From NCBI GenBank assembly GCA_019359395.1, contig JAHHHK010000023.1, positions 57,786 to 121,785 on the forward strand: DNA of 64,000 bases, in the 5' to 3' direction. The notes beneath the pieces were generated by a model. That model saw nothing but the letters and a program-made list of their open reading frames with translations. It was not told the origin of the DNA and ran no database searches. Positions 53,898 to 63,550 of the stretch are shown piece by piece. The stretch is from Komarekiella atlantica HA4396-MV6. GTDB lineage: Bacteria; Cyanobacteriota; Cyanobacteriia; Cyanobacteriales; Nostocaceae. Position numbers and translations under genes: made by a program. The stretch's first letter is position 1; each line of letters starts with the position of its first letter.

Positions 53898-54235
53898 TCA
53901 TCATTTGGTGTTAACAGCTTTTACAATTCTACAATAAAAAGAAAAGTATAAAAACATACTTGCAGTCTAAAGTCTTTTAATAACTCATGTACTAGAAAAA
54001 CTCACTAGTTCTATGTAAATTTCGCTTTTATCCAAATTAAATTTAAATACAAACTCTTAGAAAAGCTGTTTTTCAATACTCAGTATTTGGTAATAACCCC
54101 AGTATGTCTTTTGATATATTGTTTTTATTTTTTACCTATCCTATCCCCCTGGATAGGATAATATGTTACGAGTAAGGGAAATAATTGAAATATTCCTTAA
54201 GCTCTACCCAGTTTGGTTATATAGAGGAAATTATT
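53898..54235. other. non-coding spacer with a dyad (see 54137)
   Basis: A/T-rich divergent spacer between the hydrolase-like and ferrochelatase-like genes. Apart from the inverted repeat at 54137-54160 nothing is recognised. Confidence 0.5.
54137..54160. promoter_or_regulatory. inverted repeat in the leader of the ferrochelatase-like gene
   Basis: TATCCTATCC-CCCT-GGATAGGATA, perfect 10-bp arms, about 75 bases before the GTG start. It may be an operator or an RNA hairpin controlling the metal chelatase. Confidence 0.45.
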
Positions 54236-55360
54236 GTGGTTGCCACCCCAGAAAAACTGCACGCCACCCACGAACATTTATCAGGTCAAGACCGTGTAGC
54301 TGTATTGCTCATGGGCTATGGCGAAGTCGAAAGCTACGAAGACTTCGCTAACTATAATGAACAAGCTTTAAATCTACTCACAGCAAAATTTGCGCCAGTG
54401 CCAACCTGGGTTTATCCCCCCCTGGCAAAACTTCTAGCGTTATTTGATCGGCATGAGTGGGGACACACACATCACGATTTTATTTCTCCACATAACGCCA
54501 TATTTGAACAACAACGCGCTGGGATCGAGAAGAATTTACAAGCAAAGTGGGGTGATGGTGTCCAAGTCTTCAAAGCCTTCAACTTCTGCGCCCCCTTTCT
54601 ACCAAACCAAGTCTTGACAGAAATCAAAAGCCAAGGCTTTGATAAAGTTTTAATTTATCCACTGTTAGTTGTTGATTCCATTTTTACCAGTGGTATTGCG
54701 ATCGAGCAAGTTAACAACGCTCTTGCCGAGTTGGCTGATGGTGAGGAACATTGGGTTAAAGGACTGCGCTACATTCCTTCTTTCTTCAATGAACCAGCCT
54801 ATATCGATTTGATGGCTCACTTAGTTGAAGAGAAAATTAACGCTGATTTAGCAGCAACTTACCTACCTTCTCAAATCGGCATTGTGTTAATGAATCACGG
54901 CTGTCCTCACAAAGCCAAAGGATTCACCTCTGGAATTATCGAAAGTCAGGCACTATACGATTTGGTAAGGGATAAGTTAATTAACCGCTATCCTTTAATC
55001 TCAGTAGGTTGGCTCAATCACGATACACCCTTAATTGAATGGACAGTACCAAACGCGGAGCAAGCTGCTAACAACCTCATTCAATTGGGTGCAAAAGTAG
55101 TCATATTTATGCCAATTGGTTTTGCTACAGAAAACCATGAAACTCTATTGGATGTACATCACATCATTCATGCTTTGGAGAAAAAGCATTCTGGTGTGAA
55201 CTACGTACAAATGGCTTGTGTTAACGACCATCCACAGTTTTTGGCGATGGCTGCTGAATGGGCGAATGCTCACATTGCCGAGTTGAAGAATGAGCAAGCT
55301 GTGACGGTTAACCCCCAACTATCTGGGGATCACCATCACCATCACCACCATCATCATTAA
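54236..55360 (+). CDS. ferrochelatase/CbiX-superfamily metal chelatase with poly-His tail
   Basis: About 374 residues from GTG 54236, which has AGAGGA at good spacing (an upstream TTG start would add 17 residues). It shows two chelatase-like halves: RVAVLLMGYGEVESYEDFANYNEQAL, then ISPHNAIFEQQRAGIEKNL, FKAFNFCAPFLPNQVLTEI, VLIYPLLVVDSIFTSGIAIEQV, and IGIVLMNHGCPHKAKGFTSGIIESQALYD. This is the ferrochelatase (chelatase class II) fold. The C-terminus is DHHHHHHHHH, nine consecutive histidines, as seen in cobalt/nickel chelatases and metallochaperones. The metal and tetrapyrrole are unknown. No C-terminal CAB helix as in cyanobacterial HemH is present. Confidence 0.8.
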   Translation: MVATPEKLHATHEHLSGQDRVAVLLMGYGEVESYEDFANYNEQALNLLTAKFAPVPTWVYPPLAKLLALFDRHEWGHTHHDFISPHNAIFEQQRAGIEKNLQAKWGDGVQVFKAFNFCAPFLPNQVLTEIKSQGFDKVLIYPLLVVDSIFTSGIAIEQVNNALAELADGEEHWVKGLRYIPSFFNEPAYIDLMAHLVEEKINADLAATYLPSQIGIVLMNHGCPHKAKGFTSGIIESQALYDLVRDKLINRYPLISVGWLNHDTPLIEWTVPNAEQAANNLIQLGAKVVIFMPIGFATENHETLLDVHHIIHALEKKHSGVNYVQMACVNDHPQFLAMAAEWANAHIAELKNEQAVTVNPQLSGDHHHHHHHHH

Positions 55361-55448
55361 GTTGAGGTAAAAGGGACTGGGGATTGAGTATTAATTATTT
55401 ATTCACCTTGTCCCCCAGTCCCTAGACAAAAAAGCCGCAATTATACCA

Positions 55449-55713
55449 CAAAATCAGTACATATAGGCGGAAATCCTTCTTTTTGCTCCTGTGCGAGAGA
55501 ATCCCATTTTTCACGTTTTAACCAAGATGCGTCAGGCGATCGCATAGCCCCATTTGGTAAAATAAACCCAACCGAAGAACCAAAAGCTATACTTAGTGAC
55601 TCATCACGATTTCACACTCCAAGTTGAGCAGTTAAATTAGCATTACGGTTGCTGGTTAAACCTCCTACTAAAGGCATTAGTAGCAATGTGCCATCAGCAT
55701 TACGCTCAAATCT
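55449..55713 (-). pseudogene. degenerate Uma2 gene fragment
   Basis: The minus strand is near-identical to the middle of the intact Uma2 gene (about 56215-56480), including the ELRSD-like to GG-TSNRNA-LTAQLGV region. The W codon of the QLGVWNR segment reads TGA, the N- and C-termini are absent, and it is joined on its 5' side to a different small gene fragment. A decayed partial copy of the neighbour. Confidence 0.75.
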
Positions 55714-55856
55714 GATTTTGACTGGCTTGAAGCCAAAATGTCAGTTTCATCATCAGAAAGCAGCGTCACTAGCACTTTTGTTCCTTCCGGTAATTTCGCT
55801 AACTCCAGCAGTTCTATTTTTCCTTGCCGAACAGTAGCCCAAAACGTTTTTAGCAT
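55714..55856 (-). pseudogene. small antitoxin-like N-terminal fragment
   Basis: From ATG 55856 the minus frame reads MLKTFWATVRQGKIELLELA and then KLPEGTKVLVTLLSDDETD, a pattern like the AF2212-type small antitoxins (beta-hairpin then LPEGTxVxVTL). It runs into the Uma2 remnant without a proper end, so it is a truncated fusion. Low certainty on family. Confidence 0.45.
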
Positions 55857-55988
55857 ATCCGTTTTATGAACAGTCGTGTTTTGATTTTATACTTGGATGG
55901 CTAAGAGTGCGATCGCCTTACAGAAAACCTCAAAAACAAAGCGATACCTGCGGTGAGCTACGCTAACGCATTTCGTATTTTAATCAAT

Positions 55989-56564
55989 TCACCAGATATC
56001 TTTAAGATTAAGTACAAATTGCGGTAGCACATCTTCTCCTGATAAACTAGCAGGAGATTGCAGCACTTCAACATCTCTACCAGAACGATAAATTTCTACT
56101 TGCCGAGTTTCTAAATCAATTAACCAACCTAATCTAGCACCGTTATCTCGGTACTCTTGCATTTTATTTTGTAGCCTTGTTAAACAATCAGTATCAGAAC
56201 GCAATTCCACGACAAAATCAGGACATACAGGCGGAAATCTCTCTTTTTGCTCCTGTGTGAGACAATCCCATCTGTCACTTCTTAACCAAGATGCGTCAGG
56301 AGAACGAACTGCCCCATTTGGTAAAATAAACCCAACCGAAGAACCAAAGGCTATACCTAGTGATTCATTACGATTCCACACTCCAAGTTGAGCAGTTAAG
56401 TTAGCATTGCGGTTGCTGGTTAAACCTCCGACTAGAGGCATTAGTAGCAATGTGCCATCAGCATTACGCTCAAATCTGATTAATTCATTTATTTGACATA
56501 ACTGGAAGAATTGCTCATCTGTTATTTGAAGAACAGGAGCAAAGTTGATAGTTAACGCATCCAT
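55989..56564 (-). CDS. Uma2-family (DUF820) PD-(D/E)XK protein
   Basis: A 191-residue cyanobacterial Uma2/DUF820 protein: ITDEQFFQLCQINELIRFERNADGTLLLMPLVGGLTSNRNANL, GFILPNGAVRSPDASWL, PDFVVELRSDTDCLTRLQNKMQEYRDNGARLGWLIDLETRQVEIYR. The PDxSW, VELRS and K-M-x-EYxDNGxxLGWLID elements are the conserved restriction-endonuclease-like core. Function is unknown; many copies exist per genome. A decayed partial copy lies just beyond its 3' end. Confidence 0.85.
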   Translation of the reverse strand: MDALTINFAPVLQITDEQFFQLCQINELIRFERNADGTLLLMPLVGGLTSNRNANLTAQLGVWNRNESLGIAFGSSVGFILPNGAVRSPDASWLRSDRWDCLTQEQKERFPPVCPDFVVELRSDTDCLTRLQNKMQEYRDNGARLGWLIDLETRQVEIYRSGRDVEVLQSPASLSGEDVLPQFVLNLKDIW

Positions 56565-56802
56565 AGAAAAATTTCAACTTGAATATTTCCATAAAATTTA
56601 ATATAGAAGCGATACCTACGGTAAGCTACGCTAACGCACTCCCCCATTACCAAAGCGATCGCTGATTGTATGATGGCACTGTAGGCGATCGCCTAACAGA
56701 AAACCTCAAAAATAAAGCTATCGCCTGTTGTGGAAGAGTGAGTGCGATCGCTTTTCATAAACATTTAATTTTCAATTTTTTAATCAAGAGCAGAATTTAT
56801 AA
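56565..56802. repeat. repeat-containing intergenic stretch
   Basis: Includes 'gcgatacctacggtaagctacgctaacgca' (56607-56638) and a HIP1-rich segment; related repeat at 55938-55970. No gene. Confidence 0.5.
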
Positions 56803-59310
56803 CTAATTTATCAGTAGGTTAACAGGCACTTCAGCTTTAAGTGTTGCCTCGACTGCTGGGTTAAAATTGACCGTGTATTGACGAATAACTGTTAGCTGAT
56901 CCCAGGTTAAGCGGCCTTCACGACGTTGCAAAAGCATTCGTAATAAATCTGTATCATGATCTAATTTTCTCTGCTTAATTAATGCATCCTTATTTTTCTG
57001 AAATTGCTCGTTCACCTTGCTGAGAAGATATTCTAACGGATCATCATTTTCTGGTAATGACTGTATTTTTCCTTCTTCTATACGCTCTAGCATTTCGCCA
57101 AAGTAATATAGCATCGCGTATGTTGTATAGGGCCATTGTCCACTGATAACTAACCAGCGAATTGTAGGCACAGGATTATTCAATATAAACTGTTCTCCCT
57201 TGTATTCAGCTAAAGTGCGAACAAGACGGTAGACGTTTACCAATCGTTTTAAATGACGGGGGTTAGGTCGCAAAAATCTTATAAAGTGGTAGAAGGCTTC
57301 TAGCTCGTCATAGCTAAAAGCAACTAAAGAGGGCGGCTCAGAAGGTTCAACAATCTTGCTTTCTGGAGTTTCAGCAGGTGTTAGTTTATCAACTAATTTT
57401 GAGGGAGTAGAGTTACTAGTATCCCTTAGTTGATATATTGGAGTGTTTTCAGTTTGAGAGGAAGTTTTTGATGAAGGAGTAGTAGAAACTGGTGGTTTTG
57501 GGTTTCCTAATTGTTCTGAAATGAAAGATTTAATTTCATCTGGGTTAGGTTCTGGGATGCGGAATGGAATTTGCACAATTTTGTCCAAATACTCATACCC
57601 AGAAGCTCCTGCTGGGCCTAGAAGATTGCTGTAGTGTTTTTCCACTGCACGGGTAATAATACGAGCATCAATTCCTAGACATACGATAAAGCTCTTAAAG
57701 TTGAGAAGTAAGTTAACAGCCTGTAAGACTTCAACAGCTTTTTGTGGTTCACAGCGATCTAAGTCATCTATAATTATTAATACTCGACCATTGTCTTTTT
57801 GCAACTGCTTTGCTAGCAATTCCAAGTCAGAGTGAATTTCCTCCATATAATCCATCTTTTTGCCATAATCAGTTCCCTTTAATAGAGTTGCAATCCACTG
57901 ACTCATAGGTTTGGACAATGTATCAGCTACCAGTTTGAATAATCCGGTAACTCCGACTGCTAAAACTGCACCCCAGATAAGTTTGAAGTCAATCTTGAAC
58001 TTGAACACCGTAAAGACTAATAGACCAGCTAATATAGCCAGAATAAAAATTAGTTGACCTTTAATATCTTCCAATTCACGTTGAAAGTTACGTGAGAATT
58101 TTTTTGCAAATAAACCAGGAAAACCCCAAGAAACTTTCTTTTCCAGTTCATTCATAATCTTGCGTACCAGTCCAGACCAAATGAGTTTAGCCGCACTGTA
58201 TTCCCAGGCGTTGAATTTGACAACATGAACACATGGGATAGGTGGATTGGTTTGAGATTCCTTTGTCTTGCGACGCTTTTCATCACGTTCTTTTAGTTCT
58301 CTTGTAATATGGTCAAGTAGGAACGACTTGCCCATACCCCACGATCCAAAGATACCAATAGTTAAAGGGGGCTTGGTGTATGGTGATTCAATTAGGTCAG
58401 CAAAAGCTTTGAAGTAGTGATTAAAGCCAAGATGATCATTTTCGGCTACGACATCATTTCCTGCGCCCCTAAGTTTACCAATCTGGTAGAACTTAATAAG
58501 TTCTTCAGTTTCGTTTAGATTAGGTTCTATAATTGGTATCTGATCAGCAGTATTTATTGAGCTATCTTTTGGAGTTACTACTTCTGTCGTGTTGACTACA
58601 GTTCTTTCTTTAGTTGGTAGTTTAGCAATAAGTATTTTGTAGCCCTCTCTCGCCGCATAGATTTGTGGTGTCATAGCAGGAGCAGTTTCTTGGACTTTCT
58701 GTTTGGCGTACTCATGTAACTCATCGACAGAAATTATGCCATCATTATTTAAATCTGCTGCTCCAGTCTCCATTCCCTCAATGAGGTAACGAGTGTAAAT
58801 TGATAATTCCGATCCATCCTCCGCAAAGGAATACTGTGTAGAAGTCGAAGAAGTGAGGACTGCACTGTTGCTTTTTGATGATAGTCCGTCAGCAAAAGCT
58901 CCACTAAACGTAGAGTCGATCATCACTACTTGCTGCCGAGAGCGGCTATTATTCATCATTTCATGGATAAAACTGGATGGAACAGCTGTTGATTGAATTA
59001 ATTCCCCTGTGGAACTTTTACGGGTTTTGGTAGTTGCAAAGTTAAGCCTTCCGCTCTCATTTTTAATACCATGACCTGAAAAGTAAAGCAGCACTAAGTC
59101 ATCCCTGTGGCGGTCTAAGAATAGGAGTTCAATAGCTTCTTGCATTGCCATTGAATCAGGATTTAGCAATGTTTGCACTTCATCAAAATCGCCAATCTCA
59201 TGGTTCAGCAACACTCGTTGCATTACCTCGACATCTTTTTCGGATGCTGGTAGAGGACTCAATCCAGTTTCATACTCACTGACTCCAATCAGCAATGCTA
59301 TCTTAGCCAT
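56803..59310 (-). CDS. caspase-like/EF-hand/KAP P-loop NTPase fusion protein
   Basis: 835 residues. Residues 1-230 form a caspase-like (peptidase C14) domain: KIALLIGVSEYETGLSPL, the catalytic His80 in LLYFSGHG, but the cysteine motif DCC(H/F)SG reads D132-STFSG, with Thr134 where cysteine is expected. A canonical EF-hand loop DLNNDGIISVDE occupies 186-197. After a linker (about 230-300) a KAP-type NTPase follows: Walker A GSWGMGKS at 322-329, two membrane spans at about 420-436 and 443-462 inserted in the NTPase, Walker B LIIIDDLDRCE at 511-521, and a C-terminal helical part. KAP NTPases and caspase-like proteins occur in conflict/defence systems. It stands alone on its strand. Function unknown. 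Confidence 0.85.
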   Translation of the reverse strand: MAKIALLIGVSEYETGLSPLPASEKDVEVMQRVLLNHEIGDFDEVQTLLNPDSMAMQEAIELLFLDRHRDDLVLLYFSGHGIKNESGRLNFATTKTRKSSTGELIQSTAVPSSFIHEMMNNSRSRQQVVMIDSTFSGAFADGLSSKSNSAVLTSSTSTQYSFAEDGSELSIYTRYLIEGMETGAADLNNDGIISVDELHEYAKQKVQETAPAMTPQIYAAREGYKILIAKLPTKERTVVNTTEVVTPKDSSINTADQIPIIEPNLNETEELIKFYQIGKLRGAGNDVVAENDHLGFNHYFKAFADLIESPYTKPPLTIGIFGSWGMGKSFLLDHITRELKERDEKRRKTKESQTNPPIPCVHVVKFNAWEYSAAKLIWSGLVRKIMNELEKKVSWGFPGLFAKKFSRNFQRELEDIKGQLIFILAILAGLLVFTVFKFKIDFKLIWGAVLAVGVTGLFKLVADTLSKPMSQWIATLLKGTDYGKKMDYMEEIHSDLELLAKQLQKDNGRVLIIIDDLDRCEPQKAVEVLQAVNLLLNFKSFIVCLGIDARIITRAVEKHYSNLLGPAGASGYEYLDKIVQIPFRIPEPNPDEIKSFISEQLGNPKPPVSTTPSSKTSSQTENTPIYQLRDTSNSTPSKLVDKLTPAETPESKIVEPSEPPSLVAFSYDELEAFYHFIRFLRPNPRHLKRLVNVYRLVRTLAEYKGEQFILNNPVPTIRWLVISGQWPYTTYAMLYYFGEMLERIEEGKIQSLPENDDPLEYLLSKVNEQFQKNKDALIKQRKLDHDTDLLRMLLQRREGRLTWDQLTVIRQYTVNFNPAVEATLKAEVPVNLLIN

Positions 59311-59466
59311 TCAATATCTCCTATTAAACTTCCACGAATTTCAGTTCTCTATAAAATCACTGTAAATTTAATCACTTCATAATACTTTAATTCCAGGAAT
59401 ACTTCTGGAATCAAGCTGCCATTAAAAGCTTTTATTCAAAAGTGATTTGCCCAATCAATTTCAAAC

Positions 59467-59492
59467 AAAAAACGGAGCCTTTAGTGACTCCG
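59467..59492 (-). terminator. rho-independent terminator of chlH
   Basis: Read on the minus strand: CGGAGTCACT, then AAAGGCTCCG (stem CGGAG / CTCCG), followed by TTTTTTG. Positioned about 50 bases after the chlH stop. Confidence 0.75.
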
Positions 59493-59542
59493 CTGTATAT
59501 AATATTAGCTGTAAAGCTTAGATAAATATTTACTCTTCCAAT

Positions 59543-62500
59543 CTACTCAATCCCTTCAATCCGGTCTTCAACTTCTTGGTATAACTCGCGCAGGCGATCT
59601 AAATTCTCCTCGCTAGTCTCCCAATAACCGCGTCCATTTACTTCCAATAAAGTTGATACAACCTTGCGGAAAGAATGGGGATTGAGGTTCATCAAACGTT
59701 TCTGCATTTCTTCATCTTTGATGAAGGTTTCGTTGGTATCCTCGTAAATCCAGTTATCAACTGCGCCAGCTGTCGCGCTCCAACCCATTGTATTTACTAA
59801 TCGTTTGGAGAGTTCGCGCACACCTTCATAACCGTGATTCAGCATTCCCTCATACCATTTGGGATTTAACAATTTGGTACGAGCATCCAAACGCACGGTT
59901 TCTGATAATGTCCGCACTTGAGCGTTAGCTGTGGTGGTGTCAGCGATATAAGATGCTGGTGTCTTGCCATCACCTCGCAGACTTGCCACAAGCTTGGTGG
60001 GATCAGAGTCGAAGTAGTGGGAAACATCCGTTAAGCTAATCTCGGAAGAATCCAGATTTTGGAAAGTTGCATCAGCAGTTTTCAATGTACTTTCAAAAAT
60101 CCCGCGCGATTCATCCATTATTCCGGGGTTATCGGAATTGAAGGAGAAGGATTTCCGGTTGAGATACATTTCCTGTAACTCGGCTTCGCTGTCCCAAGTG
60201 CTGTTTTCTACCGCCAAGTTGATATTTGACGAGTAGGAACCAGAAGCATTAGAGAAAACACGCGTCGCTGCTTGACGCAGATTAATCCCCATGTCTTCGG
60301 CTTGTTGCAAAGCATGTTTGCGGACAAAGTTCATTTCTAAGGGTTCATCTGCCTCAGCTGCCATTTTCACGCCTTGGTCTAGCAGGTTCATTTGATTGAT
60401 GAACAAGTCGCGGAATACCCCAGAACAGTTGATTACCACGTCAATTCTGGGGCGTCCCAACTCTTCTAAAGGAATTAACTCCAACTTGTTCACCCGTCCC
60501 AAAGCATCGGGAACCGGACGCACACCCACCATCCACATGATTTGGGCTAGGGATTCACCATAAGTTTTGATGTTATCGGTTCCCCAAAGGACGCAGGCAA
60601 TGGTTTCTGGCCACTTTCCATCGTTTTCGGCTTTGTTGCGTGCCAAAAGCCTGTCTACGACAATTTTGGCTGATTGGACTGCTGCTGTTGTCGGGATGGA
60701 TTGGGGGTCGAGTGCATGGATATTTTTACCTGTGGGTAATACATCTGGGTTACGAATAGGATCGCCACCAGGCCCAGGTAGGATATACTCGCCTTCTAAC
60801 CCTTTAAGTAATGCTCCGAGTTCGTTATCAGCACAAACTTGCTGCAAGCAGAATTCCAAATACTCAAACAGGGGTTTTAGGGCTGCGCTATCGACTTTGG
60901 GATAGCCTGCTTGATGCAATGCTTCTACCCAAGGTTCTTTTTTACCCATGTTGAAGAAATTCAACCGAGACACCAGCGAAACTCGCCCTTCAGCATCAGT
61001 TTGCTCTTGGACAAGGGCGCTAACTGCGGCGCGGGTTGCTAAAGTGATGTCTTGGAGTAGTTGGACATCTTCTAAAATGCCTCGGTCATTATTTTGGTAA
61101 ATATCGTCAATGTTGCGTCCAATACTGTTGGCGATAATTCCTGGTAAACTCTGTAGAGACGTTAAATTTAACGTCTCTACGCCTTCTGGGCGATCTAAGC
61201 TGGCGATATTGACGAGAGTTGCAACTGCTTCTTCTGCACTTGGTGGTTTACCAATAACGTGCAAACCACAAGGCAATAATCTCGACTCAATCTCCATCAA
61301 CTTCCGGTAGACGTTGCCAACAATATTATCCCGCTCCTCGGCAGTCATATCCTTAGCATCGGTTTCTGGCAGATTGATATCCTTATCCAGATTCACGATC
61401 CGGCATTTATCCATGATGCTGTTGACAATGGGGATGCCGCGTCCAGTATCTTTCAAGGTTTGGTAAGAAGCAATTAACTCGCTAAGTTCCTTCAAACCTT
61501 TATATAATCCAGCATTCTCCGCCGGAGGTGTCAGGTAGGAAATTGTCTCGGCATAACTCCGACGCTTAGCAATTGTCGCCTCACTGGGATTATTTGCTGC
61601 GTAGTAATACAGGTTGGGAATTGAGCCAATCAAGTTATCTGGATAGCAGTCACCAGACATCCCCATTTGCTTACCTGGCATGAATTCCAAGGAACCATGT
61701 GTACCAAAGTGAAGTACGGCATCAGCGCCCCAAATTTGCTCTAGATAGGTGTAATATGCTGCAAAACCGTGGTGAGGACTGGCTGAACGGGAGAACAATA
61801 GCCGCATCGGATCACCTTCGTAACCAAAGGTAGGTTGTACTCCAATGAAGACGTTACCGAATTGTTTACCGTAAACTAGCAGGTTTTGCCCATCACTGTT
61901 GAGATGTCCGGGAGGTGGGCCCCAGTTTTCTTCTAGGCGTTGGGAGTAGGGTGTCAGTGCTTCATATTCTGGCACAGACATTCTGTAAGCAATGTTGAGT
62001 TCGGGGCTGCTGTACTGTGCTTGGGCGTCATGAATGACTTCTTGCATCAGCGCTTCGGCGGATTCTGGTAATTCTGGTAAGTCGTAGCCGTTATTTTTCA
62101 GTGCTCTCATTACCTCGTAGATGGAGCCGAACACATCCAAGTAAGCGGCGGTTCCCACGTTGCCTTTATCTGGGGGGAAGCTGAAAACGGTGATGGCAAC
62201 TTTTTTATCAAGTTTCGGTTTGCGGCGGAGGTTTGCCCATTTTAAGGCGCGTTCGGCTACAGCTTCAACCCGATCGCGCAATGCGATCGCTTTGCCTGTA
62301 GTCCCATCTCTACCTGATAATATAATCGGCTCAATTGCTCCATCCAATTCGGGGATTGCAATTTGCAAAGCGACTTGAATCGGATGCAGTCCCAAATCGC
62401 TATCCATCCACTCTTCTGTGGTTTGGAATACTAAGGGCAACGCTACCATGTAAGGACGATTTAAGCGTTTGAGTGACTCAATTGCTTTAGGATGGTCTTG

Positions 62501-63550
62501 TCTTGCTGGGCCACCAACGAGAGCAAAACCAGTCAGCGATATCACTGCATCTACTAACTGTGTGTTGGTATTTGGTTCATAGAAGTAGGCATCTACAGGT
62601 TTGGAGAAATCCAAACCACCAGCAAATACGGGAAGTACTCGTGCGCCTAGTGCTTCCAACTCCTGCACCATTGCCACATAATGGGCATCATCACCTGTAA
62701 CTAGATGGGTGCGCTGTAATACTAACCCGACACAGGGAGCTAAAGGATCTTTGAGATCGTTAGAGATATCCTTACGAGCTGTGTACCAGTTGAGGTACTC
62801 TCTAACATCCTCAAACATACTGGGAGCCAAAGGATGCCAAATCCCTAAATCGGGATAAACCACTGGCGCTTGATATGTATTAGATGCAAAATTTTGTTTC
62901 TCTAAACCTTTAAATACATATTTATCAGCTAGCATCAGCAAGAAGTTTTCCAGGTTTTCTGGAGAACCACCTAGCCAATACTGAAAGCTGAGCATGAAAT
63001 TTCGGGCATCTTGTGCCTTGTCCATTGGCAGGAATTTCAGCACTTGCGGCAGTGTTCGCAAAAGCTTCAGCATTCCATCTTGGAATCCCGCACCTGATTT
63101 TTCTTTGCGTTTCCGCATGAATTGGGCGATCGCACTTTTCGACTGACCCAACTGTGCTAGAGAAAAGCTGCCCATTTTGTTTAGGCGCATTACTTCTGGC
63201 ATGGAGGGAAAGACAACGGAAACATCAAGGTGATCGCGGTGTGGTTCTACAGCTGCTACTACTTTCTGTGCTAAGTCTTCGATGAAAATGAGTGAAGCGA
63301 TGAAGATATTCGCACTCTCAATTTCCCGTTTGAACTCCTCGTAGTTCTCTGGGTCGCGGAGTTCCTCAATTAAGTACCCGCTGATTTCAATCGCCAAGTT
63401 GGGATTGCTCTCGTTAATCGTGCGAACCGCTTGCGACAATGCACTCTGGTACTGGGACTCAAGCACGACATAGACCACCTTAATTAAATTACGTCCGCGC
63501 AGGTTATCAGGCGCAATGTGTCTAATGGTGGACTTGACGTGGGTGAACAT
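59543..63550 (-). CDS. chlH: magnesium chelatase subunit H
   Basis: A 1335-residue CobN/ChlH-type protein, full length for cyanobacterial ChlH. Recognised segments: [40 protein letters not shown], the conserved [53 protein letters not shown] block (read here as [12 protein letters not shown]), and [14 protein letters not shown] [26 protein letters not shown]. It binds protoporphyrin IX and works with ChlI and ChlD to insert Mg2+ in chlorophyll synthesis; those genes are not in the window. Residues 791-799 (VETLNLTSL) are encoded by a palindromic repeat, so the gene tolerates an insertion there. A terminator follows. Confidence 0.95.
61153..61180. repeat. palindromic repeat inserted in-frame in chlH
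   Basis: Perfect 28-bp palindrome made of GTAGAGACGTTAAA and its complement TTTAACGTCTCTAC. On the minus strand it encodes VETLNLTSL (chlH residues 791-799). The outer 'GTAGAGACG' is shared with intergenic palindromes at 24241, 53225 and 63848. Confidence 0.75.

Follow-up and report, generated by a model that had tools for sequence, protein, structure and literature searches.

We analyzed a 64,000-nt stretch of the Komarekiella atlantica HA4396-MV6 genome, hereafter the window (part of a 7.8 Mb assembly), and found that it carries a gene fusing a caspase-like domain to a KAP NTPase, in which the caspase part has lost its catalytic cysteine and most of the loop that follows it and has kept its fold, its catalytic histidine, and an EF-hand loop. 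At least five further caspases, of the EACC1-associated type, are encoded in this genome, and the KAP lineage of the fusion carries caspases of several types. We propose, with a probability of roughly 0.4, that the fusion is a non-cutting adaptor linking the KAP NTPase to these cysteine-bearing caspases or to their binding partners, perhaps in phage defense.

Results

An Intact Caspase-KAP Fusion Gene

The gene is a single, intact open reading frame (ORF) with an ATG start (Table 1), and homology searches place its nearest named relatives in cyanobacteria, e.g., Nostoc, Brasilonema, Scytonema, and Fischerella. Residues 3–219 match Peptidase_C14 in Pfam above the cut-off (72.3 bits), and the structure model displays a caspase fold, with a predicted local distance difference test score (pLDDT) of at least 90 in 19 of the first 22 ten-residue blocks. 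The best fold matches of this part are MALT1 and metacaspases, and the matches include entry 3h11, the c-FLIP/caspase-8 complex; searching the PDB by sequence gave no meaningful match up to an E value of 1. The model of EACC1-associated caspases (NF047832, cut-off 140) scored 139.8 bits on the protein and 143.5 bits in the genome search.

The KAP part matches PF07693 at residues 296–698 (163.8 bits against a cut-off of 20) and has K328 and S329 of the Walker A motif and D515 and D516 of Walker B. Two hydrophobic segments (about residues 413–442 and 440–463, with hydropathy maxima in the scanning frames starting at 420 and 444) are located in the stretch from Walker A (322) to Walker B (510), suggesting that this part inserts into the membrane. 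The Pfam matches, motifs, and hydropathy agree with a first-pass annotation of this DNA, which had described a pseudo-caspase joined to a membrane-inserted KAP NTPase. The best structural match of the KAP part is RdrA of the RADAR system (11% identity, rmsd 5.1), and the modeled fold indicates that the NTPase may form a ring. The PADLOC model of PifA scored 107 bits on the fusion protein; the QatA model NF041923 reached 118.4 bits against a cut-off of 600, which does not class the protein as a QatA.

The Active Site Is Substituted and the Following Loop Is Shortened

The active-site motif reads D132-S133-T134-F-S-G (IDSTFSG) against D-C-C-F-S-G in most relatives; the annotation had correctly reported the retained His80 and an STFSG stretch in place of the cysteine motif. 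The first cysteine of the whole fusion protein is residue 360, so that no other cysteine can occupy the active site in cis, and a substitute cysteine, the alternative raised in the annotation, is ruled out. With His80 and Thr134, the domain lacks the His-Cys dyad of an active caspase or orthocaspase and displays the p20 fold with a substituted dyad of a pseudo-orthocaspase.

We found a second lesion directly downstream, which the annotation had not reported. From the helix behind the catalytic position to the following strand there are 8 residues here, against about 21 in relatives (19–28 in 95 of 98); in the remaining three it has 10, 13, and 14 residues, and all three bear the cysteine. In caspases, this intersubunit linker is the place where zymogens are cleaved. 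The 98 loci comprise 38 (5 from the own genome, 4 from one earlier search, and 29 relatives) and 60 hand-picked for near-full caspase coverage from a search of 100 genomes, which scored at most nine candidates per genome and whose counts refer to the matches listed; shorter, broken, or weaker rows, the weak own-genome matches L053–L056, and all caspase-KAP copies were left out.

The remainder of the domain is better conserved. In a profile whose reference is 34 cysteine-bearing homologues (5 own, 29 relatives), with the match taken relative to their own consensus, the values are 0.93–1.00 in strands b1, b3, and b5 and 0.87–0.92 over the EF-hand unit, and fall to 0.64 at the active site and 0.42 directly after it. 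Residual or altered catalysis, with Thr134 and His80 providing a hydroxyl nucleophile, would agree with the invariance of His80 and with the substitutions to Thr or Ser in all three losses among the listed fusions described below. We consider it very improbable, since most of the loop is gone and Ser for Cys is, in the accessible text of a study of orthocaspases, common in presumed inactive pseudo-orthocaspases (PMC6426788).

Cysteine Loss Is Rare among Caspases and Recurs among Fusions

All 38 caspases of the first set keep His and Cys, as do 96 of the 98 loci, where the two exceptions have Tyr for His and His for Cys, respectively. The annotation had proposed an alignment to see whether the cysteine is lost across the family; with the cysteine kept in 97 of 98 loci, loss as a family trait is ruled out. 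Its alternative of a local mutation holds in part, in that nearly all relatives retain the residue, but the loss recurs in three of nine listed caspase-KAP fusions. These nine were found among the best 120 listed of 3068 and of 3140 homologues, so that at least nine fusions exist and there may be more. The catalytic position is Thr in this protein, Ser in P0003 and P0033, and Cys in the other six (P0002, P0004–P0007, and P0010); the caspases of P0010 and P0033 are more distant. A Fisher value of 0.0016 for cysteine loss in 3 of 9 fusions against 1 of 98 loci ignores relatedness and is a guide only.

In two of the three cysteine-less fusions the loss is paired with loop shortening, as P0003 combines a short loop with Ser for Cys. 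The stretch from the Asp of the motif up to the strand measures 19 residues here, 21 in P0003, and 32–33 in P0002 and P0004–P0007. Because it recurs in three of nine fusions, twice together with a shortened loop, the loss of the cysteine is more than one stray point mutation. His80, D26, and D132 are invariant across the nine.

In the own genome, we identified at least five more EACC1-type caspases (L002–L006), all with His and Cys, whose C-terminal parts differ (TPR, periplasmic-binding, FGE-sulfatase, and GUN4-like, assigned by eye). Among four weaker matches, L053–L055 keep both residues, and L056 has Tyr for His, its Cys position being unaligned.

As a separate observation, five double-caspase proteins (P0038, P0050, P0056, P0062, and P0075) have at their C-terminus another caspase domain, which breaks off at the intersubunit linker; in this second domain, His and Cys are both replaced in P0075 and His is replaced in P0038.

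The EF-Hand Lies within the Caspase Fold

The 12-residue loop DLNNDGIISVDE has D, N, D, G, and E at positions 1, 3, 5, 6, and 12, that is, the D/N/S ligands and Glu12 of a predicted EF-hand. The model places it between helices 171–182 and 195–209, ahead of the last caspase strands (216–219 and 227–230). This position inside the caspase fold rules out a separate inter-domain module and corrects the annotation, which had put the EF-hand between the protease-like and NTPase parts. Most cysteine-bearing relatives share it; the alignments indicate that the EF-hand is a general trait of the caspase family and no device special to the fusion.

These features bear on a possible sensing module, in which the pocket would bind Arg/Lys peptides, or the EF-hand Ca2+, and gate the KAP NTPase without any other caspase. 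The intact EF-hand loop would suit such a role, as would the fold matches to MALT1 and metacaspases, where D26 and D132, invariant in the nine listed fusions, presumably correspond to part of the basic S1 pocket. However, the occurrence of the EF-hand in most cysteine-bearing relatives means that neither feature needs a new role here, and we regard this explanation as distinctly unlikely.

One KAP Lineage Carries Caspases of Different Clades

A tree built from 49 caspase domains places this protein close to L014, L009, and L012, though not with firm support; P0003 joins the paralogue L006 from the own genome (100/100), and P0002 joins L032–L034 (95/85). A single origin of the caspase halves in the seven nearest fusions, a group set beforehand, is rejected by the approximately unbiased test (p-AU 2e-76). 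Two constrained groups that were named only after the tree was seen are rejected as well, namely a single clade for the caspases of this protein, P0002, and P0003 (p-AU 9e-50) and a clade of this protein and P0002 (p 0.002). The KAP tree (50 rows, quick method) in turn unites this protein, P0002, and P0003 in one clade (support 100, Shimodaira–Hasegawa-like approximate likelihood ratio test), which also holds P0008, P0009 (EAD1-KAP), and P0012; P0008, the KAP sister of P0003, starts with what by eye appears to be the end of a P0010-type caspase. Since one KAP lineage thus carries three caspase clades, the caspase half has been swapped repeatedly, and in two of the three fusions of this lineage both the cysteine and the greater part of the loop are missing. 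Pfam labels among the matches listed for the wider KAP subfamily include TIR, CHAT, trypsin, Clp_N, HEAT, pentapeptide, and EAD1.

The several caspase types on one KAP lineage and their disarming would also fit well with an integrated decoy, in which the dead caspase would imitate host caspases as bait, and invader inhibitors or cleavers that bind the bait would trigger the KAP NTPase. Against this, the N-terminal slot in the KAP relatives listed holds effector or adaptor domains (TIR, trypsin, EAD1) that are not obvious host targets, and we know of no invader-encoded inhibitor of EACC1-type caspases. We consider a decoy rather unlikely on the whole, although inactive domains in related systems are suggested to be decoys or dominant-negative forms in the accessible text of a 2020 survey (PMC7159879).

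We further weighed neutral decay, whereby the caspase half became unneeded after the fusion and is eroding. The lost cysteine and loop, a long branch (0.4 changes per column), and P0002, the N. spongiaeforme counterpart at this locus, which keeps the cysteine and has SG changed to SE in the motif, are what decay would produce; against P0002, the nonsynonymous to synonymous rate ratio (dN/dS) is 0.24 over caspase residues 1–135 and 0.10 in the KAP part. On the other side, the ORF is intact, the changes cluster at the active site while the EF-hand and core strands are kept, and dN/dS in the caspase part is about 0.11–0.14 against the cysteine-bearing L009 and L011 (0.18 between these two), with dS high throughout; pairwise values cannot, though, date selection relative to the cysteine loss. 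Decay is in our view unlikely: because the site is lost, the fold is kept, and several caspase types occur on one KAP lineage, a docking or bait role fits better.

An EACC1-Related Family Accompanies Many Cysteine-Bearing Caspases

The EACC1 system is described from actinobacteria and sporadically from proteobacteria in the accessible text of the survey (PMC7159879). Many of the cysteine-bearing caspases are preceded, in the same orientation, by a gene encoding about 125 aa (within 800 nt; up to 700 nt of flank was examined at the 60 hand-picked loci); we counted it at 26 of 38 and at 63 of 98 caspase loci, four of the five own paralogues among them. Seven of the 98 loci contributed proteins to the profile with which all 98 were counted, and at least one locus contributed its product to the second profile, so that the count at these loci is tied to the model. 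The family has 1071 database matches, with no Pfam label among the 120 listed (P0121–P0240; loci, e.g., L003:1092–1466, L009:7606–7980, and L014:2264–2635). By profile comparison it is homologous to the proteins upstream of four actinobacterial caspases (probability 97.9%, E 4e-13), which scored 29.5, 21.8, and 16.7 bits against the EACC1 cut-off of 23.6, the fourth giving no match. Profile comparison indicates that this widespread cyanobacterial family is an EACC1 homologue, which would extend the EACC1 two-gene system to cyanobacteria. The EACC1 Pfam model PF19953 had zero matches in the own genome, in a search with no positive control; the profiles built here recover EACC1 homologues missed by the Pfam and NCBIfam models.

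The fusion itself has no such neighbor. No EACC1-like gene was matched in the 3 kb upstream within the window, and no member of the 125-aa family was found at the fusion or at its N. spongiaeforme counterpart, so that for EACC1 the lack of an operon partner, as first annotated, stands. In P0004–P0007, the C-terminal half of an EACC1-like domain lies inside the KAP module (probability 98.1%, E 9e-14), and among the 132 proteins searched further half-domain matches occur in the trypsin-KAP protein P0011 and in P0016 and P0017; in these seven the half is inserted in, or placed ahead of, the KAP module. A profile of all nine fusions gave no match to the EACC1-like family, the match being confined to P0004–P0007.

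The Fusion Gene Lies in a Putative Accessory-Gene Hotspot

The fusion gene starts 232 bp past the 3′ end of chlH. We compared this side of chlH (window 55400–59543) with loci L107–L110 and L007:6650–11500, where Uma2 genes were assigned by DNA match and some small genes by eye. In four congeners, other genes occupy the slot: HigB, a helix-turn-helix (HTH) gene, and Uma2 in G001; XisH and XisI together with a HEPN and a Uma2-like gene in G002; NYN, several small genes, and Uma2 in G003; and AIPR/AbiU in G004 (AbiU E 6.5e-181). N. spongiaeforme also has its copy, P0002, on this side of chlH, where it comes behind a Uma2-like gene (by eye), XisI, and 129 bp that repeat the chlH 3′ end with its flank at 91%. 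Short copies of the chlH 3′ end also occur in G001 and G004; in all, three of the five comparison loci carry such a copy at an inner border. The 3′ side of chlH thus looks like an accessory hotspot with defense content in the genus and in N. spongiaeforme. Together with the structural match to RdrA, the defense-type genes at this site in congeners support the affinity to conflict systems that the annotation had suggested.

The downstream Uma2 gene is unlikely to be a dedicated partner, because 92% identical copies stand at the same site in the congeners G001 and G003, both without the fusion there. A partial second Uma2 copy (282 bp, 90% identical) lies at window 55436–55717, with short repeats bearing GCGATCGC nearby, and a ferrochelatase-family ORF at 54185–55360 ends in a run of nine His.

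Some match to the fusion is present in 79 of the 100 genomes searched (own included), and among the matches listed, none in another genome spans both halves. A KAP match at E 1e-10 occurs in 38 of 386 cyanobacterial genomes (own included), the best outside the own being 30% identical. In viral contigs, five loci match, in the KAP part only (22–26% identity), and none of the 1091 plasmid records with a match covers 80% of the query. A caspase on plasmid p057_M of Nostoc sp. C057 (L106), typed as mobilizable, is 74% identical to the Brasilonema one and lacks an annotated gene immediately upstream in its own orientation.

Table 1. Features of the fusion gene and its surroundings (window coordinates)
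Feature	Position	Strand	Basis
Caspase-KAP fusion gene, 835 aa	56803..59310	-	ORF, Pfam, structure model
Caspase-like domain, residues 1–232, probable EACC1-associated type, without any Cys	58615..59310	-	Pfam, NF047832, sequence, model
Retained catalytic His80	59071..59073	-	Alignment, sequence
Thr134 at catalytic Cys position	58909..58911	-	Alignment, sequence
Residues 141–149, with what is left of the p20/p10 intersubunit loop (from Gly142, 8 residues, versus about 21 in relatives)	58864..58890	-	Alignments
EF-hand loop, residues 186–197, within caspase fold	58720..58755	-	Sequence, model, alignment
Low-confidence linker, residues 233–290 (long linker at this place in P0004–P0007, helical by appearance)	58441..58614	-	Model, alignment
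KAP NTPase domain, residues 296–698	57217..58425	-	Pfam
Walker A, residues 322–329 (Lys328, Ser329)	58324..58347	-	Sequence, alignment
Hydrophobic segment 1, residues 418–438, predicted transmembrane	57997..58059	-	Hydropathy, model
Hydrophobic segment 2, residues 443–462, predicted transmembrane	57925..57984	-	Hydropathy
Walker B, residues 510–519 (Asp515, Asp516, Arg519)	57754..57783	-	Sequence, alignment
Low-confidence insert, residues 605–661 (place of the EACC1-like half-domain in P0004–P0007)	57328..57498	-	Alignment, model
C-terminal helical part of KAP module, residues 662–835	56806..57327	-	Alignment, model
Uma2 gene, downstream of fusion	55989..56564	-	Pfam, DNA match
chlH (magnesium chelatase H), 3′ end bordering the hotspot	59543..63550	-	Pfam, comparison

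Discussion

In the adaptor mechanism that we favor, the pseudo-caspase would first be altered by a trigger, which may be an invader protein or Ca2+ bound at the EF-hand, and the KAP module would bind ATP and assemble at the membrane as the predicted ring. The clustered pseudo-caspases would then recruit and activate, or restrain, cysteine-bearing caspases, the dead caspase acting on active ones as c-FLIP does on caspase-8. Such a model supposes that the paralogues are active, that the fusion docks with them, and that ATP or Ca2+ drives the switching; the presence of at least five EACC1-type caspases with intact dyads in the same genome makes the adaptor idea testable.

Several points weigh against this reading, which draws on sequence and structure models. 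The ring is predicted from fold similarity at 11% identity and an rmsd of 5.1, and the KAP lineage includes three fusions with a readable site, a small number. Catalytic loss is not required for the chassis, since P0002 keeps its cysteine, and P0004–P0007 keep both cysteine and loop; conversely, three cysteine-bearing relatives have loops of 10–14 residues. Against P0002, caspase residues 1–135 have a higher dN/dS than the KAP part. The last caspase strand, the usual dimer edge in metazoan caspases, has a relative match of only 0.71, so that a conserved dimer with the paralogues is not favored. Moreover, the fusion is absent from the site in four congeners and is thus dispensable.

We compared the fusion with known systems, as far as the accessible texts of the cited papers describe them. 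The EACC1-caspase two-gene system has an N-terminal EACC1-type caspase, a type to which the caspase part of the fusion probably belongs, with a variable C-terminal partner and a proposed membrane association (PMC7159879), whereas the present gene has no adjacent EACC1 gene and lacks the catalytic cysteine and most of the intersubunit loop. Deployment by autoproteolysis, as in that system, would therefore fail in cis here, and the C-terminal partners listed for that system do not include a KAP NTPase (PMC7159879). In VMAP-ternary systems, about 70% of effector-position caspase domains are called inactive, with dominant-negative or peptide-binding roles suggested (PMC7159879); dead caspases thus occur there too in conflict-system proteins, but they are fused to vWA components, in contrast to the KAP NTPase partner of the present protein, whose family is otherwise dyad-bearing. 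Pseudo-orthocaspases share the cyanobacterial caspase fold with a substituted His-Cys dyad (PMC6426788, PMC7889975), and every orthocaspase-bearing cyanobacterium is said to have an inactive variant (PMC7889975, 2021). Their common dyads are YS, YA, FS, QC, and HA (PMC6426788, PMC7889975), against His-Thr together with an EF-hand and a KAP NTPase in the present protein.

Among KAP proteins, Tmn (PMC11846954), QatA (PMC13279940), and PifA share the P-loop domain, with no caspase-like domain reported in the texts for these proteins (PMC11846954, PMC13279940). The architecture of the anti-phage protein Tmn, with two unusual transmembrane domains (PMC11846954), is similar to that found here, and QatA appears as a heptamer or octamer (PMC13279940). 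RdrA of RADAR forms a heptameric ring with RdrB (PMC9994260); it has no caspase, and the likeness here is of fold only, at 11% identity. In related systems, KAP ATPases can displace STAND NTPases (PMC8195603). Inactive peptidases of bacterial conflict systems have been suggested to act as decoys or as dominant-negative forms (PMC7159879).

Finding a dead caspase is in itself unsurprising, since inactive caspases are known in cyanobacteria and conflict systems; in the open-license literature found, no caspase-KAP fusion with a lost cysteine is described. What is new is the KAP fusion, the origin of its parts as a mosaic, and the pairing of the two lesions: caspases from different clades sit on a single NTPase chassis, and two of the three have been disarmed at the same two places. 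Pseudo-enzymes that regulate active kin are central to animal cell death, and we know of no tested bacterial dead caspase that steers active ones. A bacterial counterpart of c-FLIP or of an integrated-decoy NLR, in which a KAP ring repeatedly takes up a caspase of local type, disarms it through loss of the catalytic cysteine and the activation loop, and with the dead copy senses attacks on, or gates, the working EACC1-type caspases, is conceivable, if somewhat unlikely. c-FLIP, a pseudo-caspase that acts on caspase-8, would resemble the present protein as a dead regulator of active caspases; it has no NTPase, unlike the KAP fusion, and the homology that we claim extends to the caspase fold only.

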